This document shows positions 9,901 through 24,797 of a stretch of DNA of 64,000 nucleotides, piece by piece. Made by a program: the position numbers and the translations under genes. The notes below the pieces were generated by a model. It had not been told where the DNA came from. It was given only the letters and a program-made list of their open reading frames with translations, and did no database searches. Positions within the stretch are counted from its first letter, which is position 1. Each line of letters starts with the position of its first letter. This stretch comes from Bolinopsis microptera (Eukaryota > Ctenophora > Tentaculata > Lobata > Bolinopsidae): NCBI RefSeq assembly GCF_026151205.1, contig NC_087072.1, positions 7,674,084 to 7,738,083 on the forward strand. Direction: 5' to 3'.

Positions 9901-12038
9901 AACTTATACTTTTATACGATAGGAAACTTGAAATTGAAAAAAAGCTAAATTAACATTTACATAGCGATAAATAAGTCAATTTAGGTTAACTGCTGACATT
10001 TTCAGGAGATGGTGTGCAGTGAAAGACTTGAACAGGAGATTGATCACGAAGTTCTGAAAACCCCTGCCCCTCTAATAACTTACCAAGAGAACGTTCAACA
10101 AGCCCTGAACTTCCTGAAAACCAATGAGGCTAACTACAAGAGAAGATGGGTGGGGTTCAGGACTGCCAACGAGCCGAACTTTAAGAACACTGTCAAAGTG
10201 CTGGGATTTGTTGGAATATCAGACCCCAGAGCAGTCAGACCTTGGAGGTTAGTACGGTCAAAAAGCTACTGGATTTTCACAAATAAGATTTAGATGAGTA
10301 GAGGCAACCTTTTTGATTGATCTAGAATGGGCGTTAAAATAAGTAATTACCCGACAGAAGTATTGGAAAAGAAGGAATAGAGTACGGACAGTTTAGAGGA
10401 CCCGTTGGGATCGATGTTAGCATGAGAGGGGAAATTGCCATCTCAGACTTCGAAAATCATCGAGTACAGGTGATCAAACTATAGCACATATTTATTATTT
10501 ATCGCAGACATCAATAATAGTTCTAACTTATTTAGTTCACAGATTTGACTCGCCATTATAAAAAAACAATATTTTTATAACAGATTCTTTTCTCCAATAT
10601 AATACGACTAAATTTCTTTCGCAGCTGCTTGATAAAAACGAGGAGTTCAAAGGAGTGTTTGGAAGCAAGGGATCAGATTCTGGTAGCATGAAGGGGCCGA
10701 ACGATGTTAAATGTGATAAGGATGGTCGATATGTGGTGGCGGACACTTTCAATCATAGGATCTCATGGTATGATAATGTAAGTAGACTTCCACTAATCAC
10801 CCAGTCCTGAATTGTTCCTTCGTAGGGAATGTTCCATTTATAATGATTCACGAAAGTGGTCCTCTTCCATTTGCTCATTTGCTAACGCCGGTATTATATC
10901 AGAAATTGGAGCACCTACAAAGCATAGGAAGAAAAGGAAACAAAGCAGGAGAGTTTGACAGACCTAGAAGTTTGGCTATAACCAGCGAGGGTAACATTGT
11001 GGTGGCGGACACTGGAAATCAACGTGTCCAGGTAAGCCAGCAGGAGTGCAAGGGAAAACAGTGATTGTTCCGTTATTGACATTCTTGTGGATACAATTCA
11101 TAATAATATGACCATTTTGACATGTTATTTATTCTACTGATCACAGGTATTCACGGGAGATGGGGAGTATTTGTTTGCGTTTGGAGATCTTGGCAAGGGT
11201 CCAGGCCAGTTCAAAGGACCACATGGACTGGCTGTTGATCACAAGAACAATATCTACGTGGCTGATCTCTACAATCATCGCATCCAGGTACTGTACACTG
11301 ATAGCATTGTTTTTCAGTCAATAAGATACTTTAAAATCAGTCCAGCATTGTTATTACAAGTGCACTGCTTGCCACTAACTTTTTAAAGCGTGAGACAGTC
11401 CGAGCACGTATAAGTCGTGATAGTTTGTCGTGAGTGTAAGATATTCACTGATAATAGAAACATGCTAAATTAAAATAGTGAGTGGAATATGCGGTATATC
11501 TAACAAGATGATTATAATGGTGCATGACACTGCACGACACCCGATAATATCGTTAAACACATCTCTTAGGTGTTCGACGAATCAGGAAAGTTTGTCAGAT
11601 CGTTCGGGAAGGAAGGACGGCTGGAAGGCGAGTTATCAGAACCACGAGCGATAGCCTTCACTCCGTCCACCTCGCCGGGGGAGGCAGGTAACCTTCTGGT
11701 GGCAGAGATGGAGAACCAGAGAGTTACTATGTTTAGCGACGATGGACAGTACCTCTGTATTTACGGGGACTCTTGTGAGGTATTATATTTACTAGCCACC
11801 AGGTTTTATGTTCATTTTGTTCTTGATCAAGGGCTCTAAGGAGTTACAGTGCCCCAATTTGGAGTGCAAAGTGTTGACAAATAATAAGTCAAGAACTAAA
11901 AGTTGTATCTAAAACTAACATGATATTTGTGTTTTGCAGGAGAACAGTTCGTTTGGTTGTCCAAGCGGAGTAGCAGTTGATTCAGAAGGGAGAATATTTA
12001 TCAGCGACTCAAAGCTCAATGTTATCCACATTCTCTGA
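6826..12038 (+). CDS. coiled-coil NHL-repeat protein (TRIM2/3/71-like tail, no RING or B-box)
   Basis: The common body is joined from exons 9048-9163, 9388-9471, 9763-9885, 10006-10247, 10358-10469, 10625-10777, 10903-11031, 11147-11287, 11570-11779 and 11940-12038 (stop TGA). All junctions are GT-AG and in phase. Alternative first exons lie at 6826-6943, 8135-8291 and 8689-8917; the last gives 545 residues. The exons to about 10247 encode a charged, helical, coiled-coil-like region. From about 10358 there are six NHL repeats, each with the G-x-F-x-x-P...DxxNHRVQ pattern (for example GQFRGPVGIDV and ADTGNQRVQVF), expected to fold as a six-bladed propeller that binds protein or RNA. The architecture resembles the C-terminal half of TRIM-NHL proteins, but no RING, B-box or filamin domain was found, so ubiquitin-ligase activity is not supported. 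The repeat assignment is firm; cellular role is unknown. Confidence 0.88.
6944..8134. other. intron / upstream region between alternative first exons A and B
   Basis: It contains the partial hAT-type MITE at 7023, a CG-alternating run at about 7491-7508 (CGCGCGCGTGCGCGCGG) and a short GTAA microsatellite at about 7532-7550. No other coding exon is seen. Confidence 0.4.
7023..7062 (+). mobile_element. partial copy of the TTACCTGGGG hAT-type MITE
   Basis: It begins TTACCTGGGGATCCTAGGCT and continues AATAATATTCATAA like the left half of the other copies. The right half with GGCGGAATGACAGGCTG and GGCCCAGTAA is missing. It is either a truncated copy or a diverged half element. Confidence 0.55.
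8135..8291 (+). CDS. alternative first exon B of the NHL gene
   Basis: The ATG at 8135 opens 52 codons plus one base to a GTGAGG donor at 8292, ending in phase 1. It encodes AARIAYRWK, closely matching AAKYAYRWK in exon C, so exons B and C are paralogous first exons, probably from local duplication. That shared AYRWK motif, lost in exon A, may be a functional element of the N-terminus. Confidence 0.75.
8292..8688. other. intron / probable promoter region of first exon C
   Basis: No further exon is recognised between alternative first exons B and C. The short frames here are not supported as coding. Confidence 0.4.
8689..8917 (+). CDS. alternative first exon C of the NHL gene
   Basis: The ATG at 8689 opens 76 codons plus one base, ending at GGTCGTA before GTAAGT (phase 1). 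The split codon with the exon at 9048 becomes ATG. The peptide is Ser/Pro-rich, then carries AAKYAYRWK, shared with exon B. Being closest to the body it may be the default start. Confidence 0.78.
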
Positions 12039-12781
12039 GAACCAGAATGAGATAAGTTTTCGATATCTCTCTACTGTTCAGAGAGGTGAATTTGTTTGAT
12101 TGATAAGATGAAAGAGTGTAAAACACAAACCTAATTCATTGGTGATCGTTGTTCAGAAAAGCTCATTAAAATAGAGGGTGTAAGATGACGGAGAGTGATC
12201 TTAAGATCTTAGTTAATCGACACAGATGAACTTTACAAAGGACTTGCAAGCTGAATTTGTCAGAAATTGACCGAGGTCAACCAAATGCATTCAGATTCGT
12301 GAAGTGCAGAACTATTGTTTTAGAACTAGACTGTTGTTTTAGAACTAAACTGTTTTAGATGTGTGGAATAGTAGGCTACATGAAAGGAATACAGGAATAT
12401 CAGTATCCTTGAATTTTGCGAGGAAACCGACCGTGTAAAGAATGTATAGTGCTGTAAATATATTCATTTTTTTTCAACAGTTGATAACATTTTTTCATCG
12501 TTCTTGTTTTAGGTATTGTAAAACTATCTAAAATAAATAAATTCTAACATTAACATTTAATAAGGGAAACTCAATAGATTGAGGAAAATAATTAAATATT
12601 TTGAGTACAAAAATTAAACAGCTAAGCTGTATACAAATCACATTATATTCATTATTCAACTTGTAGGAACCCGCCTATAAAACGTACAAATTATTACGTA
12701 CAAAACATAATATAAAACAAATAGCATTAATTATATCGCAAATATGTTAATCATAAATAAAATCATCCCATATCTAAAGGT
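12039..12781. other. 3' UTR and spacer between two convergent genes
   Basis: This stretch after the NHL stop contains AT-rich 3' UTR-like sequence and the polyadenylation candidate at 12532. No coding sequence is seen. Confidence 0.45.
12532..12541 (+). terminator. candidate polyadenylation signal of the NHL gene
   Basis: Overlapping AATAAA hexamers (AAATAAATAA) lie about 495 bp after the NHL stop codon, before convergent transcription from the cathepsin gene. No experimental 3' end is available. Confidence 0.45.
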
Positions 12782-12910
12782 CTGGATACTGGTGGGGAAA
12801 TTAACATATGTTTTGACACGTGACAGTCATCCCGGGTTTTGATTGGAAGCTGATTGCTTTATCACTGTCACGTGTCAGAAAAAATGGTTGACCTACCCAC
12901 CAATATCCAG
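12782..12910. mobile_element. small hairpin MITE with CACGTG-containing inverted repeats
   Basis: The ends CTGGATACTGGTGGG and CCCACCAATATCCAG are inverted repeats, and inside them TGACACGTGACAGT pairs with ACTGTCACGTGTCA. This gives a roughly 129-bp fold-back element. A related element is at 20163-20277. No target duplication is clear. Confidence 0.65.
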
Positions 12911-13147
12911 ATCGTTAATTTTACCGATTGAAACTCGGATGCTCAACAATTTAATTCACACAATTCAATGATCATGAATCCAAGGGCCAGAAAGATCAGA
13001 GGGTCACATCAGAAAATTACATAAATTGAACACCTTAGGCCCGAAGATATTCACATAGTTTTCATTCCGTCAAACAAAATCAATTTAACGGATTTTATAT
13101 CGACTATTGTTCAAGACTCGATAATATCAGCATCAAATGGGGTATGT

Positions 13148-16100
13148 TTACCATGTTTTCTTGGCAACAGCCCAGTCACACGAATCCTCCACACCGATCA
13201 TATCAACACCCCTGACAATACGGAACCAGCCCTCTTCACCCCAGTAGGTACCCCAGGAGTTCCTTCCAATCCAGAACTTTGTACCATCGGCATCAACTCC
13301 GTAACCAACTATCGAGATCTCGTGATTTGCACACTTGTCTCCGTCCGGATCGTTGAAGATTCCCCCGGTGTACGCCTCAAACTTGTCGTTAACGCATAGC
13401 GAGCAAGCAATCGGACCACGGGCGGATATCTCAGCCATCATGTTTCCTTCTCCGGCCACTTGCCCGTGCTCGGTGATGTGCCACTGAAAGAATATGATCT
13501 ATAGCTGTAGTTACTTTTAAATTGGCGTGTAGAAGAATTTAAACATAAGTCGGCTCGAAAAAGCGATCGCTTAAAAGATATATGCTTGATATCTGATAAA
13601 AACAAGGAATGACGTTAAGAATAAATCATTGCTATTTGTCACCACAGTGATAAGTATTCCGTGAAGATAGATAAAACTAACCGTGTAATACTCCGTCACA
13701 GCCCAGCACTTGTAATCAATGTGATCAGGATAGAACTGGGTGGGCATGCAGTTCTTGCAGATGTTGATTGGCTCGCACTGGTCATCTGTAGCGGTGTAAA
13801 TACTGCACGTGTCGTCCGTGATCCCATGCTCCATGATCCAAGAGTAAGCTGCGGTAGGGTCCCCTCCGTGACAACCTGAAATATGGTGGAACTTTAAAAT
13901 AATCAAGCTGGCGTGCTAAGTCATAAAGAAATAATTAAATCGCGGCAGATACCACTTTCATTATTCTCCTGATGTGCTATAAAATTAGAAGCGCTATTTT
14001 AAAGGAATAAAATAAGCCTAATACCTGCAGTATCATTAGCTCGGACGCAGTCCACTAGGGGTTGAGGAGACAGGTTAATATCTGGCCACGCTCCCCGCCT
14101 CGCCATCTTGATTCTGTCAGCCAGAGCGGAGGTAGTGCCGTGAGCCCAGCAACTTCCGCAATCTGTTGGTTTATTTAGTGACACATTGACAGGTTTGAGG
14201 TGAGGTTTTAAACAAGTAAACTGTGCAAGTTAGCTATTTGGGTTTGCTTTTAAGCGTGAACTCATTTTCTGAAAATCACTAGTTAAGCATTATTAGTCAA
14301 GAACTTACAAACTGGGATGTGTTGGTTCCTGTTAACAGTGGTGTAGTCTTTACCGCCCATATTTCGCGGATCATATGCCTTAGGTAGGTCCTCAACTTTA
14401 AGGTAGGTATGAGGTTGCGGTGTCTTAACATGAGTCTTCGCTGTCTGATTGAATGTATAAAGTAAGACAGGTTAACCAATTAAAGAGAAGAGGATTTTCT
14501 TACTGCTCAAAACCTAATACACAATCAATAATGTATAATATGTTGAATCCTCATCTTTTATATATATGCTATATATAGCATATATTATGTTCTTAATGAA
14601 GTAAAATTCACCAGACAAAATCACTTACCGGGTCTTTCACGACACAGGTTTTAGAGTGGTATTTGGGCTTCTTCTTTTCGACGGTTGGTGCGGTTTGAGA
14701 AACTTGTTCCCAGCTAGGGACGCCCCACGTGCAATCAGTTTCAAGTGCCAAGTTGTGTTTGTGCATCATCACTCTGGGGAGATTTGGATATTGTAATGAA
14801 ATTAGAATCGATCGACCCTCGAGGAATATAGTTATCTGGGGACCGCAGCCTATCATATTTATGTTCACAATCATAGAGATTAGGCGGAATGACAGGCTGA
14901 GCGCGGCCCAGTAAAGCGCCGCCCAGTAAGGAATATTATAGATAAACGCGAATGTCATGTCTGAGATCTGATATCGCAATCGTTTTGATAAGTAGACTAT
15001 CTAGCTATTGATCGAACAGTCTGCACTAGATGGCCGGTAATACGTGAGCGATCGGGTAAATAATAAATATAATCGAATCATGCATGCATGATCAAATTCA
15101 CGATGCGATGATTGCGATCGACGTGATTGATCTGACTCGATATATATATCGAGTATATAATATTAATTATGTACGTCGCGTTATATTTTCCCACGCTGCG
15201 CGTGACTGACTGTCAAAGTATTCTAGCGCGTTCCAGTAAAAATAAAAAGTAGACCTCCCGTTCTATCTGGTCACTTGTAGAATGTTACAGTTATCATCGG
15301 TATCATCAAAATAGGGTTTATCCGAATGCCTTCGACTGTCGACACACATATATAGGTTTCTAAAACACTTTGTGCACACGAAAACATGTACAGGGTAATT
15401 AAGAAGCCTAGTTATGTTACAAAAATTTTATAAAAATAGAAACCTGGAAATTTAGGTACATACCAAGTGTGATAGAATGACTAACTACATATTATATTAG
15501 TTTTACCACATTTCGGCACCCTCTTTTCAGTGGCCTAATTTCACCGGAATTGGAGGAATACCTTTTATAAATGCAATTTCCCAATGTTTTCCAAACAATT
15601 CTTCAGCTTATGACTAATAAAACTTACTTAGCAAAACCGTTGATTCCCCAGTATGATCCCCAGGAATTCCTGAGCCACCAGAACTCAACACCGTCCTCTA
15701 CACCCCATCCGACTAACTGACAAATACTTGATTATGACAGGGAACACAAAGTTAAACTAATATGTACATTTGCTAACAAAGCTGTAATTATAAAGGCAAA
15801 TCACACATGGCCACACAAAATACTAATAGAAAAGTAAAAAAGAAGTGGCAACTAACAGAAATCTCGTGGTTGATCATGGGGAAGAGTTTGAACTCGCTGT
15901 AGATCCCGCCTGTGTAATTCTCAAACTTGTCTGTCACCATGATTCCGCACCCGATGGGACCTGACAGTATTAAGTAGTGATAAGTGTTTACAATTTAGTA
16001 ATATGACGGATTATTAAATTCTGGGAACAGCTTTTTTGTCCAAGTTGTATTACAAGACAGGTGTGAAATTTGGTTTTTGGCCGATTTTCGATGTAAGTAA

Positions 16101-19100
16101 TACTCATTACTCATCCTGTAATCTATTCTGTGGAATTATTTATGTAGTTCTGCAGATAGTACAATTCATTCTGTTGCAGATATTCGAATAATGATATATC
16201 AATGATAATGAAATGCAGTGACCAAGAAATATTGCACTGTACTCCAATATTTACAAAGGTTAATACATTTATGGGATTTATAGTGCAAGCGAAGTACTAA
16301 GCCTCTAATTAATTGAGCGAGCGATGTGACACATAGAAGATCCGAGTCCACTGAATGTTCATAAATGCTAAATCTGAGCCTCTAAATTATTATTGTAGCC
16401 AAACAATCAATTTGACCGAATCTGAAACAGTGCCTCTGACTTGAATATGCTGCGGTTTCTTACAGTAAATTTATACCATAATAGTTTCTCCGAAACGTGT
16501 CGTGTACATACAATACGAAATTACCAATACTGACAAAGCACGATCTTTTGATACCACTTCTTTACTCACTAAAATATACCCTTCACTGTGAAGCCTCTGG
16601 AATGAAGCTGCTCTTATCACATATTTTATGGTATTCAATGATACTTCTTAGTATCTTCTGCTAATTTTGTTATATGTCCGACAAAAACCAGCTATTGCTT
16701 TCGACTGGAGAGCGTTCAGATAAAAAGCGTGTGGAGTAGGCATGGCAGATTCAAAGAGACTACAATCTTCGCTGTTCATGTATATATTTATATCTAACTG
16801 GCTTAATCGACCAAGTAAAGGTTTGAAAGTATTACTAATGATTTTGAGACTTCAGGAGCCAGCATCTCACATTGTGAGATTCTCACAACTAGGGAGAGCA
16901 CGTAAACTAAAAGCACAATGCAAAGGAGCTATTTATGTAAATTTATAGGCTGAGCAACTTGTGATTTACAAGATCACACTAGTTTAATCCAGACTTGGAG
17001 AGATTAGGATCTTGAAAGAGACTCAGTTCGTACCAGTACGTACTAAACAAAAATCTGAGTATGAAGATGAAACTATAGTAGGCCCTTTTGAATTATGCAA
17101 AGACTAATCTGCTCACCTTTGCACCCGGTGAGTAATGCATGCTCTGTTAGCACAGAGAGGAATGATTTTAATGTCCTCGGTGCAATACGGGCCCAACAAC
17201 CTTTCCGTTGTTAGTGCTGAACGCACTTAAGTAAAATATTTTGTCTCTTTAGTAAAGTTAATTGGGATTTGGGTGACCATTTGAGTTTTGACTGCGTGAT
17301 ATAATGACGACCTGATTGGGCTCCCTGTACGATTAGTGTGCCAATCCAATCACATGATCCCGCGTGAAAATAAACTCGTTGTGTTTGATACCTCGGTCAT
17401 CTGAAAAGCTTCCATATTTTTAGGAAAAGTGCAAGTGAGCACTCATTAACTGAACAATAAGCCCAAAAGTTTGCACTCTGACCTATCGGCCGACCTAAAG
17501 ATTTAACATGACATCATTTTTTTCTAAGTTGGTAAATTAATAACCCGTCACTTTAAAGATGATCGCGTTTGCCATAAGGACTACGGAAACTGTACAAATT
17601 GTTCAACGATATAATTTCATGAAATACTGCTGATTCTAAATACATTTTTATATTAAATATTTATACACCATGTTATAAATGTGTATTCAGGCTGACTTAG
17701 CATGGCCCGTAACCTCGTGTTTCTCGTATTTCTGGGTCTAGAGATTTACAGTGGGTCCAATGCTGCTATTCCAGGTAGGACGATTAATCATAGTTTTATT
17801 ACAATGCTCCAATAAATTACCTTGTCATTTACATTGAATACACACTACAATAGAACAGTAAACCCAGTAACCCCGGTGACCCCGGTAACCCATAGTTATC
17901 ATAATTAATAATTTCTTGTGTGGTTAACAGCTATCATTCCAAATCCAATTAACTACTCGTAATTGTACAAAGCTGATCATGATATAATACTAATATTTCC
18001 CCTCAGCTTGCGCACAGGAGCATAGAGACTTTGCAGGAAGTGATATATCTGGTTTTTCAACCATGGACAGCCTTATCAGCTGTATCAAATATTGCCAGTC
18101 AATAGAGGGCTGCCTATCTTTCACATACGACATCAAACCCAAAAATTGCTGGCCTAAGAACAAAGAATTCAGTGAAAATGAGGCCATAACCACTCAAAGT
18201 GATCAGGATCTATTTAGTGGCAACATAAAGGAATGTGCAGGTACGGTAATGTTATTATATTACTTACGACATTCTACCACTTATCTTTGAAGTATGCACA
18301 AGAAATCACTGAAATCACTAATAAACCGGAATCAGACAAAAAATGTAAATGAATGTATTTGATAAGTTATCTTAAGGGGGCATACCCCAAATCTGTCCAG
18401 ACCTAATGACCTCATAGGCAGTTCAGTGACCTTCTAGCGCACCGTTTCCACACCAAAAAAAATTATTTTGAGAATTCCCATTTTTGTAATCGAGCATTTC
18501 CTGGTTAAGAGTGCAATTTTCGGAAAATATTATTTTGTGGTTGAGACGCTATAAAATAATTATTTCTTGCGGTATCGGGTTGAAATTTTGCTCGCCGTTT
18601 ATTCACATATATGTCAAGGTGTGTGTAAAATCTTGATATCGTATCTAAAAAGGCTGGTGTGTTATGAATTTTTAAAGTCAAAAAGATAAAATTGTCCTTT
18701 TCAGGCTTATTTTAACAAAAAGTCAGTCAGGGAAGATCGGATTATTTGATGCTTGACATCAAATTGTTCTCTGAATTCTGGCGCAGTTTTAGATGCCCTC
18801 AAAAATGTTTTTACTCATTCACCTTCTGATCTATTGGACAAACAACAAATTTAGGCACATTTTTCGTTTTTAATATTTACTGATTTTTCTAAAATTTTGA
18901 TAGGAATGTGCTAGTGACTTTTTGAAGGGTGCAAAATAACCGCAACTAGCACATTTATATATGAGTTATGAACAACAAAACACCCTAAAATGCTTCCCTT
19001 TGAAGTTATGGGAGAAAATGTGATTTTTTGGCTTTGCAGATTAAAAATCACATTTTCTCCCATAACTTCAAAGGGAAGCATTTTAGGGTGTTTTGTTGTT

Positions 19101-22100
19101 CATAACTCATATATAAATGTGCTAGTTGCGGTTATTTTGCACCCTTCAAAAAGTCACTAGCACATTCCTATCAAAATTTTAGAAAAATCAGTAAATATTA
19201 AAAACGAAAAATGTGCCTAAATTTGTTGTTTGGCTTTGAGGTCCAATAGATCAGAAGGTGAATGAGTAAAAACATTTTTGAGGGCATCTAAAACTGCGCC
19301 AGAATTCAGAGAACAATTTGATGTCAAGCATCAAATAATCCGATCTTCCCTGACTGACTTTTTGTTAAAATAAGCCTGAAAAGGACAATTTTAGCTTTTT
19401 GACTTTAAAAATTCATAACACACCAGCCTTTTTAGATACGATATCAAGATTTTACACACACCTTGACATAGATGTGAATAAACGGCGAGCAAAATTTCAG
19501 CCCGATACGGCAAGAAATAATTAACTTATAGCGTCTCAACCACAAAATAATTTTTTCCGAAAATTGCACTCTTAACCAGGAAATGCTCGATTACAAAAAT
19601 GGGAATTCTCAAAATAATTTTTTTTGGTGTGGAAACGGTGCGCTAGAAGGTCACTGAACTGCCTATGAGGTCATTTGGTCTGGACGGCACAAACCACTGT
19701 TTTGGGGTATGCCCCCTTAATTACAGTTGACGGAGGTTGGAGTGACTAGTAGTAGTAGTGAGATTTTGTAGTTTAGCAAACGCTAAAATCCTATTCTTGT
19801 ATTTCTAGGGTAAATAATAGAGTATTTCCTTTCAGAATATTGTGAGGGTTTAAATGAATCTTGGGAGCACGCAGTAACAAGTGGTAGCTTTCCTCTAAAA
19901 GCAGAGAAGACAATCACAGTGTCCTGTGAGAGGAAGTACATTAACGTAGGAACAATAACCCTCACGTGCACTGTCGGAACACTGACCGGGGGAGAACCCA
20001 CCTGTCTTAAACCAAGTGAGATAAAATTGCTTTATTTACGTCAAATAATATGACATGCTGATTTGAAAATGCAACCAGTAGTTAGGGCTGCTGTGTTGCA
20101 TTTTCAGGCAGTTAGTTGATAAAACGATAGATAAATAATTTTAGTATTGTTTGTTGAAGAGAGTGGCCCAGTGGGAGTCATATTTTTGTGTGACACGTGA
20201 CCGTGAATAACCAATCAGCATCCAGCATCGACCAATAAAAACCCAGAACCACTGGACCACGTGTCACCAGTATCCACTTATATTAAATAGTATTTTAGTT
20301 ACAAACCTCTAGCGTATATCTCAGCCTTCATCCTGTCAGCACCTCTAACACTGCCGTACTGACTAACTTTGTAGTTATCATACTTCTCAACTGGGTGGCA
20401 CTGAAGGAGGGTGCAGTCAGTTATTGTAGCTTTTTGGAGATCATGTTATAAACATTAAGTACGACATGTTGGAACTATGAAATAAATTCATTCGTTTGTT
20501 AACCACACGGCACACAGTTTAATATAATTATAATGAGCGATATTTTAGGTATCCTCGTTGATTTTAACTTACTCCAGTTTCAGGATCACATGTCTCACAT
20601 ACACCCAGTGGCTCACATTCGCCGTCTTTTGCCTGATGAGTGATAGGGACTTTTAGCCGAGACTTGATCATAAAATCAGACTAAGGATAGCACTGTTCGG
20701 CACATGATTCCTTTCATTTTCATTTCGTCTCGTGTCGAGTGACATAAAAACATAGACACGACAGGCTAGCATGAAAGTCTGCTTAAACCATATTAGAATA
20801 GAAACAAGATTATAATGTTCAGATTAGAATAGCAACAAGATTATAATGTTCAGATTACACGTTGTTAATTCTTACCACGTAGTTCTGACAGGTCTCGTCA
20901 GGAATACCCTTACTCTCAATGTACTCCAGTGCAGCGCCCGGGTTACCTCCTGTAGGATAAATGTAGGAGGTAGGATCAATGTAGGAGGTAGGATCAGAGT
21001 GAAAACTAAACTACATAATATCTCTTTACAACCAACATTTTGCAAGTTTTAAAACAAAAATATTCTTTTAAATTATAAGGCCTGCATAATTAAATTGCAA
21101 GCTGGTAATCTATCTGAAGAAACGTACCCTCGCAGCTACCACCACCCCTGCAGTTGACCAGAACCTGAGGAGACAGCTGGATCCTAGGCCACGTGTTGTT
21201 GCGCATTATGGAGATCCTGTCACTCAGAGCTGATGTCGTGCCCTGAGCCCAACAACTACCGCAATCTGGGGAGATGTGAGATGTTAGAAAGCTCTTAGTA
21301 CGCGGTGCACTATTTTCATGTGATAATAGTTGAGTTAAAATAGGAGCGTGACTGTATAGACGTGATTTCTTTAAAACATCAGGAATCGAGCTAAGGAGTT
21401 GTGATTTAATTAGTATCATGGGTGTAAAGTGCTCTACACGGGCATCTTTGTATACGATTTCTGCTCAGATACATTGTATGCCACGAGCTTATCACCGAAA
21501 TAAAAATATAGCGTCAGTAAACCAATTTCTCCAGTTTCTCATGTCTCTTCAATCATTTCAACAATAACATGTATCATGTTGGTGTGAGTGTCACGTGGCC
21601 ACATGTTGACAATGAAACTGGATACGAATTAATGTAAAACTTTGTTCCGTGCGGTGCCCATACATTTACCCCAGGTAAGAATTACAAATAACCTTATCAA
21701 GTCGCTGACACAAAACTTCCAATAAAGCATCTGGCACAGTTTTTCATCTTGCACTTTGTTCAAGTACACAACTATGTAAAAAAGTTACACAACAATGTAA
21801 ACAGGAAAGTTACACGTGTACATGTGAGTCACACACGGGTATGTAGAGAATGTTACACTCTTGTAGTGTACACTTTGACTTACATATGGGGATGTGTTGG
21901 TTCCTGGTGGCGGTTAGATAGTTTTCTCCGTTAACATTGCCCCAATCCCAGCTGGTAGGAAGCTCGTGTTTTGTTAACAGTTGGTGGGGTAAGGGTGAGG
22001 TTATCTTCTCTCCTCTCGAGAACGACGCTGGAACAAAGGATATAAATAGTAACGGAGTTTTATATTAACAGGAAACGATGTTACAGAGTCGATATATTTT

Positions 22101-22765
22101 AATGTTGCCATGGGGTGGCAAGTCCCCATACATCGTGGTCCGGTAGTTTCATTGCGTCCTAATATATAGTCCGATAATTTCACTGCGTCATAATGTATAT
22201 AAACTTTTATATATTAACCTCTTAATATTTTGACTTTTGCTTTTTATCGAATCTGTGGTAAGTTATCATCGCGTGATAATCGAGCAACGAACTTGGCAAA
22301 TTCTAATTTTCGTATTTAAGCGATAGCATGTGATGATGACGTTAGCAGTAATTCTGAATTCTACAAAACATTCGCTGCGTGTGTAGGAAGCTGATTCCAA
22401 AAACAGGGGAGTAGGATATCGAATAACACTTATGAGGCATGCTACTCAAGTCATGCTTTGCAATACAAGGAAACAATACATATTGGTGAGGTAGGAATCA
22501 GGAATGTATCTTTGTTCCGATATAAATTGTACAATTGAGAACCAAAATAATATTAAATCTAAATTAGAGAGAGCTTTAAAGAGGAAGTAGATCATCAACT
22601 TTCAAAGGAAATAAATTAATTGAGGAGAAATGAACAGAAACGTTCATTACATTGTAAACATCTGATGATTTTAATAGTGTTTTATTTACCTTTAGCATCT
22701 CGACAACCTTTCATAGCTGCAACTGATGCCAGAGCTACTGCAGCGAGTAGCACCAGCAGTCTCAT
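13148..22765 (-). CDS. tandem two-domain cathepsin Z (cathepsin X) cysteine protease
   Basis: Thirteen in-phase exons (gene order): 22690-22765, 21884-22027, 21128-21265, 20876-20949, 20573-20632, 20307-20400, 15857-15960, 15628-15716, 14629-14773, 14309-14444, 14025-14162, 13682-13875, 13148-13483; 1728 nt, 575 residues. Exon 1 is a signal peptide plus a propeptide Cys. Domain 1 has RNQHIPIYCGSCW, NHEIS (catalytic His) and LRNSWG (Asn). Exon 9 encodes the domain 1 C-terminus (NLALETDCTWGVP) and continues without a stop into a short Lys-rich linker/propeptide with a Cys. Domain 2 then has RNQHIPVYCGSCW, NHEIS and GRNSWG. Both keep the HIP mini-loop diagnostic of cathepsin X, whose His supports carboxypeptidase action, and both triads look complete. 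The expected site is lysosome or secretion. Ordinary cathepsin Z has one such domain of about 300 residues. Domain 1 has more introns than domain 2. The main doubt is whether transcripts really cross exons 8-9-10. Confidence 0.88.
14832..14929 (+). mobile_element. hAT-type MITE (TTACCTGGGG family)
   Basis: It begins TTATCTGGGGACC and contains GGCGGAATGACAGGCTGAGC and GGCCCAGTAA, followed by a short repeated end (GCCGCCCAGTAA). With the end at 14929 the flanks GGAATATAG and GGAATATTA are nearly the same, an imperfect target duplication. It sits in the intron between cathepsin exons 8 and 9. Confidence 0.75.
14930..15627. other. cathepsin intron 8 sequence
   Basis: No exon on either strand. 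It includes a small palindromic AT run at about 15139-15157 (CGATATATATATCG). Confidence 0.5.
15961..17701. other. part of cathepsin intron 6, upstream of the nested gene
   Basis: This belongs to the 4.35-kb intron between cathepsin exons 6 and 7. No exon is recognised. The end near 17650-17701 presumably carries the promoter or 5' UTR of the nested plus-strand gene. Confidence 0.45.
17702..20015 (+). CDS. secreted PAN/apple plus sushi domain protein, nested in a cathepsin intron
   Basis: Three exons, 17702-17774, 18007-18240 and 19836-20015, join with GT-AG sites, and every junction is phase 1. Exon 1 is a hydrophobic signal peptide. Exon 2 is a PAN/apple-like module with cysteines in the contexts LISCIKYCQ, GCLSFTYD and KNCWPKN. 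Exon 3 is a sushi/CCP-like module with cysteines in EYCEGL, TVSCERKY, LTCTVG and PTCLKP. Phase 1-1 exons are typical of shuffled extracellular modules. The whole model lies on the opposite strand within cathepsin intron 6. The 3' end is not settled: a GTGAG donor follows 20015, and an acceptor at 20107 would give a terminal codon or two and a stop at 20115; otherwise more exons are missing. Ligand unknown. Confidence 0.7.
18376..19716. mobile_element. 1.34-kb TTAA-flanked foldback (giant palindrome)
   Basis: Left arm (about 18376-19028) and right arm (about 19043-19716) are near-perfect reverse complements around a spacer of about 14 nt. The outer ends read GGGGGCATACCCC inward from both sides and are flanked by TTAA at 18372-18375 and 19717-19720. 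The arms differ mainly by roughly 10-nt indels and a few substitutions. TTAA flanks are typical of piggyBac-type insertion, but no transposase is present and the terminus is not a standard piggyBac end. It lies in the intron between the PAN and sushi exons. Confidence 0.85.
20163..20277. mobile_element. second copy of the CACGTG-rich hairpin MITE
   Basis: The left part, GTGGCCCAGTGGG followed by TGTGACACGTGACC, and the right part, ending CACGTGTCACCAGTATCCAC, are imperfect inverted repeats. They match the termini of the element at 12782-12910 (GGATACTGG and GACACGTGAC). It lies in the cathepsin intron just upstream of exon 6. Confidence 0.5.
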
Positions 22766-23599
22766 TCTACGGGAAGGTCTAAATAAATTATACTATGGCC
22801 AACGTTCTAGTCATAGACTACTAAAATTACATAATGTAAGGGTAAGCTAAAGTCTAAACATTTGATTATTTCACCGAGTTCATCAATTTAGAGGGTTAAC
22901 TTTTCTAGTCAAGACAGTGTAAAACACAGGCTGCTTAAACAAAATGACAACTTAAAAGAAATCAAATAGAATAAATGTTAGATAATTTACTTTACTTCAA
23001 CAAATTTATATTAAGATAATCTGATGCCACGTGAAGGGTGAGTTATAATACTACGCTGTAGTCTTATCAGTTACAACTCACAAGATACCACGGGGCAACG
23101 CCTGATCAAATTATGGAAGCTAAGTAACTGTGCATGACTTCATAATTTAGGAATCAAATCTTATCGTAACTCAAGGTGTCGTCTGATTTAAAAAACACTG
23201 ACAGGGCCTGTACCGTTACACGAAGAGTAAAATAGTCAAGTCTATTATGATCAACTTTTTTCCATGAAAGTTCGTGTTTTCAGATAAATACATATATGCA
23301 TATGTTTATTTCATTAGACGAATAAAAACGAAGACGTCATAATTTAAGGAAGCAAAATCTTGTCTTATTCAAATAGCATGGCTAGGTTACGCTATGAATC
23401 AGAACATTATAATATATTATGGAATAAAAATAGTGAGTTGTTATATAAAATTAATATCAAATGCTTCAAATTAAATAATTTAAAATACTCAAATAAAATT
23501 TACGACGACAAAATGTGTAAATGTGATTAACATAGCTTCGTGTTATTATCCTAGTTTCAAGGATTAATAGTGTTGAGCTAACAGCCACACATTATCAGC
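22766..23599. other. spacer between the cathepsin and CTF8 genes
   Basis: It should include the cathepsin promoter on the minus strand and the CTF8 3' UTR. No coding exon or clear repeat is seen. Confidence 0.45.
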
Positions 23600-23926
23600 T
23601 CAACCTTTGGTCTTCGGCGGATTTTTCTGAATTATAGGCTTGGGTCTCGTCTTGAAAATGTACTTCTCCTCAATGACAGATTTGATTACCCAGTTCTTAT
23701 CAGCAGTTTTAGTCATGACCCCAAAAGGTTTCTCAAGTTTCACAACTTTTCCAGTCAGTATGTGATGTCCTATAACCAGCTGTGGGGTCCCCGTTTTGTC
23801 GATGTGGAGGTCCCCAATGTGGGCACCTTGGAATGCGACGGATGAAGGACAGTCCACCTTGCCTTGTAGCTCCACCATCCCCCATTTGTCCAGGGTGTCT
23901 TGTATCTTCAGCACAACTTGAGGCAT
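23600..23926 (-). CDS. CHTF8: chromosome transmission fidelity protein 8 homolog (CTF8)
   Basis: Single coding exon of 108 residues. Its start Met (MPQVVLKIQ) aligns with the start of animal CTF8. Conserved blocks are VELQGKVD, GDLHIDKTGTPQLVIGHHIL, LEKPFGVM and IFKTRPKPII. The last two-thirds follow the family closely, and length is near the usual 120 or so residues. CTF8 works with DCC1 and CTF18 in an alternative RFC complex that loads PCNA and supports sister chromatid cohesion in the nucleus. The open frame extends upstream to 23977, but an acceptor (CACATTAG) at about 23958 and homology favour the start at 23926, with a non-coding 5' exon upstream. Confidence 0.92.
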   Translation of the reverse strand: MPQVVLKIQDTLDKWGMVELQGKVDCPSSVAFQGAHIGDLHIDKTGTPQLVIGHHILTGKVVKLEKPFGVMTKTADKNWVIKSVIEEKYIFKTRPKPIIQKNPPKTKG

Positions 23927-23957
23927 ATCTTCTACCGCTGATACCTTTTGTTGGGCC

Positions 23958-24797
23958 CTAATGTGATAAAGTGACACGTAATACTATTTATTTTCAAGTA
24001 AAAATGGAGTGTATAGCTGTGTGAAATTAGATTATGTTAGGAATTTCCCAAAATAACACCTCACGTACACGAAAATCAGACATTTAATTTGTTTATTGAT
24101 GATGGTGATCAGTGAGAATGTTAAAGGATGATCGTTTGAAAAGAACTGTTGAAGGTTGATTCAATTTACATTTAAATAAAGATGGGATCCTAGAATAAGA
24201 TTACGATCTTGAGGTAGGTGTACTAGAGCAGTCATATTTTGGAATGTTTGAGCTATGCGCACTGATGAGAAAGAATTTAAGAAAACACAGATCGATATAG
24301 TTAAAAGATTAAGTTCTAAAATAAAATAAAATAAATTCATACAAAGTCATCACTCATCATCCATCATTCATGTTCAATAGTAACCCCGTTATTATTATAT
24401 AACCCCATTATATCATATTATAAGAATAAGTAAATATTCATCGGAAAATAGATTATAATTTGATTCATAACTAATAAATTTAATAATAATATACATCACG
24501 TCATGCAAATAATATTCTATGTAATAAACATTAACATGCATTAAAGAATTATAATAATATGTACAATTAAATTGTTGAACAAAAATTACAAGTTTACAAA
24601 TTGTACAGCTTTAAATTGACAAAATGTCTCCAAATTATTCGGGCGGTTTACATAAATTTCACACACACATGAAAGTATATAAATTATGCAAAAAATCAGT
24701 TGAGAAATAATAAAAATCTTACATCAACTCAATTAGAAAAGTGTGCATACTAAGGCTCACCAAAGATCCCCGAAATGTGCTATGTCCGTGAAACAAC
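23958..24797. other. spacer: CTF8 5' region and 3' flank of MAPEG copy 1
   Basis: AT-rich. Part of the stretch around 24430-24790 is duplicated as the 3' flank of MAPEG copy 2 (about 25715-26050), showing that the tandem duplication included non-coding flank. Confidence 0.6.

Follow-up and report, generated by a model that had tools for sequence, protein, structure and literature searches.

Several proteases, among them angiotensin-converting enzyme, carboxypeptidase D and the polyserases, carry several catalytic units of the same family on one polypeptide. Enzymes of the papain family are, to our knowledge, normally single-domain. In cathepsin X, also named cathepsin Z, the propeptide contains a functional cysteine, while the oxyanion glutamine and the HIP mini-loop contribute to carboxypeptidase specificity. 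The accessible text of one source reports cathepsin X as a carboxymonopeptidase and describes its propeptide, of 38 residues, as the shortest (PMC10650516). Within the papain-like enzymes, the accessible part of a grapevine survey mentions a predicted protein bearing two Peptidase_C1 domains (PMC8556938). Its likeness to the protein described here is limited to the two Pfam C1 domains found in one predicted chain. It is a plant protein, however, and the proteins in that survey have at most 501 residues, so its two stretches may be a single split domain. No two-unit cathepsin Z was found among the literature listed on tandem or two-domain cathepsins or on cathepsin Z of early animals, nor was there a literature match for cathepsin Z in Mnemiopsis. 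The literature covered consists mostly of papers available outside subscription, and the absence constitutes weak evidence of novelty.

Here we describe a minus-strand gene of the ctenophore Bolinopsis microptera, located in the 64,000-nucleotide stretch of DNA that was analysed (hereafter the window), in which two cathepsin Z units follow one another in a single joined frame (Table 1). The initial annotation had proposed thirteen exons joined in frame with matching phases, extending from 22765 to 13148 and including a fusion exon, exon 9, at 14629-14773. Locating the exact sequences by script returned the same gene ends and the same exon 9, and the exon structure was borne out: all 12 introns have GT...AG borders and the phases match. 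The joined coding sequence of 1728 nt is free of internal stops and encodes 575 residues followed by a stop codon. Splice sites of this model were picked by hand with homology as a guide, and only 6 of the 12 donors have the GTRAG form. As an observation at the sequence level, the presence of two cathepsin Z units in one gene is confirmed.

Table 1. Features of the tandem cathepsin Z gene, in positions of the window.
Feature	Position	Strand	Remark
Exon 1: start codon, hydrophobic stretch resembling a signal peptide, first part of propeptide 1 including Cys21	22690..22765	-	hydrophobicity 3.28 over 10 residues
Exon 2: remainder of propeptide 1, beginning of mature domain 1 with the NQHIP mini-loop	21884..22027	-	
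Exon 3: catalytic Cys78, domain 1	21128..21265	-	
Exon 4: domain 1	20876..20949	-	
Exon 5: domain 1	20573..20632	-	
Exon 6: domain 1	20307..20400	-	
Exon 7: catalytic His227, domain 1; the 4.3 kb intron before it contains a separate + strand gene	15857..15960	-	
Exon 8: catalytic Asn247, domain 1	15628..15716	-	
Exon 9 (fusion exon): last part of domain 1 (to Trp281), linker, first part of propeptide 2 including Cys303	14629..14773	-	
Exon 10: remainder of propeptide 2, beginning of mature domain 2 with the NQHIP mini-loop	14309..14444	-	
Exon 11: catalytic Cys358, domain 2	14025..14162	-	
Exon 12: domain 2	13682..13875	-	
Exon 13: domain 2 with catalytic His518 and Asn539, then the stop codon	13148..13483	-	
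ATTAAA, candidate polyadenylation signal, about 190 nt past the stop	12950..12955	-	consensus match only

Pfam places two Peptidase_C1 stretches in the 575-residue protein. The best match among solved structures is human procathepsin X (1deu), at 1.5e-85 for the whole protein, where the alignment falls on domain 1, and at 3e-69 for a query with domain 2 only. Dipeptidyl peptidase I, the next family, follows at 4.3e-34 and 2.2e-30, respectively. Domain 1 shares 49% identity with human cathepsin X over 255 columns and domain 2 shares 45% over 238 columns. The residue positions agree with the earlier proposal that both domains keep the HIP mini-loop and the catalytic Cys, His and Asn: domain 1 has Gln 69, HIP 70-72, Tyr 74, Cys 78, His 227 and Asn 247, and domain 2 has Gln 349, HIP 350-352, Tyr 354, Cys 358, His 518 and Asn 539, the NQHIP motifs at 68-72 and 348-352 both aligning to the human NQHIP. 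A propeptide cysteine lies 27 residues ahead of the mature start in domain 1 and 25 residues ahead in domain 2. The two cysteines (Cys21 and Cys303) align with each other; since the start of the human propeptide falls outside all alignments, they were compared only between the two halves, and they may correspond to the cathepsin X propeptide cysteine, which lies at about this place. The HIP mini-loop and catalytic residues of each half resemble those of human CTSZ (1deu, 1ef7). Unlike human CTSZ, which has one catalytic unit per chain, the tandem protein joins two units in one frame behind a single signal peptide and has a linker running into a second propeptide; in addition, an 8-residue stretch near the C-terminal region of human CTSZ is missing from both halves. 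By sequence, each unit is a cathepsin Z domain and the whole protein a tandem variant. NCBIfam, to which only domain 1 was submitted, gave no match for this half. A Pfam match to Herpes_ORF28, scoring 19.5 against a cut-off of 40, was taken as chance.

Aligned over 257 columns, the two halves share 46% identity, and domain 2 carries insertions of 8 residues and 3 residues relative to domain 1. Nine exons encode domain 1 and five encode domain 2, with exon 9 contributing to both. The intron following HIP occupies the same column and phase in both halves, the next keeps its phase but is displaced by three columns, and the remaining ones differ. A count of two shared introns was rejected, only the one after HIP being at the same aligned column and phase. 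Based on the 46% identity and the differing intron positions, the duplication is probably old. To look for further copies, the assembly (264,652,675 bases, 232 contigs) was searched with each half, using a loose first filter for candidates; all 134 candidates of one search and all 122 of the other were scored, yielding 106 and 96 matches, respectively. Outside the gene's own exons, short matches to the halves do not exceed 46% identity and longer ones range from 24 to 37%. The pattern (R/S)NQHIP occurs nine times genome-wide, two of these in the tandem gene, and tblastn with either half, allowing E up to 1, found nothing in about 3 kb around each of the other seven sites. Neither the searches with each half nor the NQHIP pattern found a second cathepsin Z gene in this assembly of 264.7 Mb, and as far as these searches reach, the tandem gene would be the only one there.

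The transition between the units is contained in exon 9, where one frame runs from the end of domain 1 (to Trp281), which is homologous to cathepsin X, through an 18-codon linker containing KKK and into propeptide 2 as far as Cys303. The codon score of this exon is 17.3 in frame, compared with -26.3 and -27.4 in the other forward frames and 1.9, -11.3 and -23.3 on the reverse strand. That the linker is open carries little weight by itself, because 6,292 of 20,000 intron windows of its length are also free of stops; its codon score was reached by only 14 of the 20,000. The background windows were drawn from introns of the same gene, nested gene included, and the score was trained on 12,172 codons taken from the longest ATG frames of 30 loci of the same genome with Peptidase_C1 matches, these frames not being checked singly. 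The codon score of the linker may partly reflect base composition.

We propose, with a probability of about 0.58, that the gene encodes a single precursor in which one signal peptide precedes two zymogen units in series and that the linker is cut by another endopeptidase. The one-gene, two-unit structure on which this reading builds is very probable; the earlier claim to that effect is well supported at the level of sequence. Given that structure, separation into two enzymes appears probable. The single signal peptide would direct the entire precursor to the secretory or lysosomal pathway, while each unit would be kept inactive by its own short propeptide. The stretch Trp281-Leu328, comprising the KKK-containing linker and propeptide 2, would then be cut by a separate endopeptidase, for instance a cathepsin L-like one, releasing two carboxypeptidases in equal amounts, and cathepsin activity may subsequently trim the tail remaining on domain 1. 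The accessible text on the human enzyme states that procathepsin X is incapable of autocatalytic processing and that cathepsin L processes it in vitro under reducing conditions (PMC10650516). Consequently, if propeptide 2 is removed in the usual way, a further endopeptidase would be required and the chain would be severed between the units. The self-cleaving pair suggested in the initial annotation is unlikely, given that cathepsin X acts as an exopeptidase. The animal probably has suitable endopeptidases because its genome contains at least 154 Peptidase_C1 matches (150 of 281 candidates scored), with contigs C1-C13, C20 and C122 represented among the matches listed. Many of these matches cover almost the full domain within a single unbroken frame of about 270-945 residues, which suggests that the genome may harbour a large family of intronless cathepsin-like genes. 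One Peptidase_C1 match lies about 4.9 kb past the end of the window (C1:7742994-7743623).

The main rival to this reading is that the units are made as one chain and kept tethered, forming a double-headed carboxypeptidase, for which angiotensin-converting enzyme and carboxypeptidase D are the models. Both catalytic sets are intact, an identity of only 46% between the domains leaves room for different specificities, and the two insertions in domain 2 point the same way. Yet a propeptide-like stretch lies between the units, with its cysteine 25 residues ahead of the mature sequence, compared with 27 in domain 1, and the usual removal of this propeptide to activate unit 2 would cut the chain. Angiotensin-converting enzyme, carboxypeptidase D and the polyserases, moreover, belong to families and folds that differ from those of the tandem cathepsin Z, and unlike these tandem-domain proteases, the latter gives no sign that its units stay joined. 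We hold a lasting tether to be rather unlikely and consider it most likely that two separate carboxypeptidases result.

A further possibility is that two tandem genes only seem fused and are resolved by trans-splicing, by an internal promoter or by retention of intron 9. Ctenophores are listed among animals with spliced-leader trans-splicing in the accessible part of one source, although operons have not been reported for ctenophores (PMC7986045). Retention of intron 9 would yield a single-domain product, as a stop is encountered six codons past the donor (VSDFVW, stop). No methionine occurs between residues 263 and 337, the latter being inside mature domain 2, and a transcript starting at exon 10 would therefore have its first Met inside the mature enzyme, which argues against such a start. 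The separate signal exon upstream of domain 2 that would speak for two genes was sought in a scan for alternative first exons with GTRAG donors, which returned nothing besides exon 9. Because only half of the gene's own donors are of this type, the scan was repeated with any GT donor. Between 14445 and 15627 it gave 27 phase-0 candidates with a top hydrophobicity of 1.94, and between 14445 and 22765 it gave 4 candidates at hydrophobicity of at least 2.0, none with a GTAAG or GTGAG donor. The candidate of most relevance, a weak one, lies within intron 8 (14774-14958, minus strand), where an ATG at 14958 opens a 61-codon frame that continues unbroken into exon 9, without any splice between its start in intron 8 and that exon, and then into exon 10. 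A transcript of domain 2 beginning there is conceivable, and this ATG is the best case against the one-gene structure as initially annotated. Its moderate hydrophobicity (1.94) is well below the strongly signal-like stretch of exon 1 (3.28 over 10 residues), however, and the 61 intron codons look non-coding, with a score of -15.4 against the 17.3 of exon 9, making a start of domain 2 at this position unlikely. The proposal that only domain 1 has a signal peptide accordingly holds for the strong stretch in exon 1 and is qualified by this weaker candidate for domain 2. The intron-8 start slightly lowers the odds of one gene and of the proposed reading as a whole, and slightly raises those of two genes. 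Also against two genes are the coding-like score of the linker and the minus strand between 16988 and 14175, that is between the domains, which contains neither AATAAA nor ATTAAA; an AATAAA at 14175, within intron 10, counts the other way. On balance, two separate genes seem improbable. An artefact of the gene model or the assembly, which the hand-chosen, homology-guided splice sites might invite, is highly improbable considering that positions 11001-23000 contain no N, that all introns are GT-AG with matching phases and that the halves differ in intron layout (nine versus five exons) and are thus not a duplicated assembly block.

Other features were observed in and around the tandem gene. Exons 6 and 7 are separated by a 4.3 kb intron that hosts a nested three-exon gene on the plus strand (17702-17774, 18007-18240 and 19836 to about 20053) with a signal-like start and a PAN domain (Pfam PAN_1, 1.2e-06). 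An intron of this nested gene contains in turn a 1.35 kb near-perfect foldback palindrome (18372-19720) with TTAA at both ends, the arms of which pair over 445 nt at 98%, 190 nt at 100% and 25 nt at 92%. With 40 of 482 candidates scored, one arm has at least 76 matches across the genome, the majority at 92-98% identity, and the palindrome looks like a recently spread mobile element. Downstream of the tandem gene, frames at 10786-12038 (+) resemble NHL or TRIM-type repeats when the list of open reading frames is inspected by eye. A 127-residue open frame at 23600-23983 (-) resembles, also by eye, the chromosome cohesion factor CTF8.

Relatives were also sought in other sequence sets. In viral_contigs, one of the single-domain searches gave no pattern match and the other gave 10 pattern matches, none of which was a relative. 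A two-row alignment of the halves retrieved relatives in 2 of 103 pattern matches in viral_contigs and in 4 of 29 in genome_contigs. All of these are distant, and the DNA retrieved for each locus contains one matching region; they have no bearing on the fusion. A cathepsin Z-like gene with NQHIP, apparently interrupted by introns, was observed at L072:3001-4122 on a contig labelled as a Verrucomicrobiaceae MAG, which looks like eukaryotic DNA in a bacterial bin.

The layout of the gene is unusual for the cathepsin family, while its component parts are familiar. What it could mean for the animal is more tentative. As a doubtful but conceivable extension of the two-enzyme precursor, the gene may represent a lineage-wide double cathepsin X, possibly ancient in ctenophores, that would be the animal's only cathepsin Z and would supply, in a 1:1 ratio, two diverged carboxypeptidases with different specificities, either co-released by a single cut or kept together as a double-headed enzyme.
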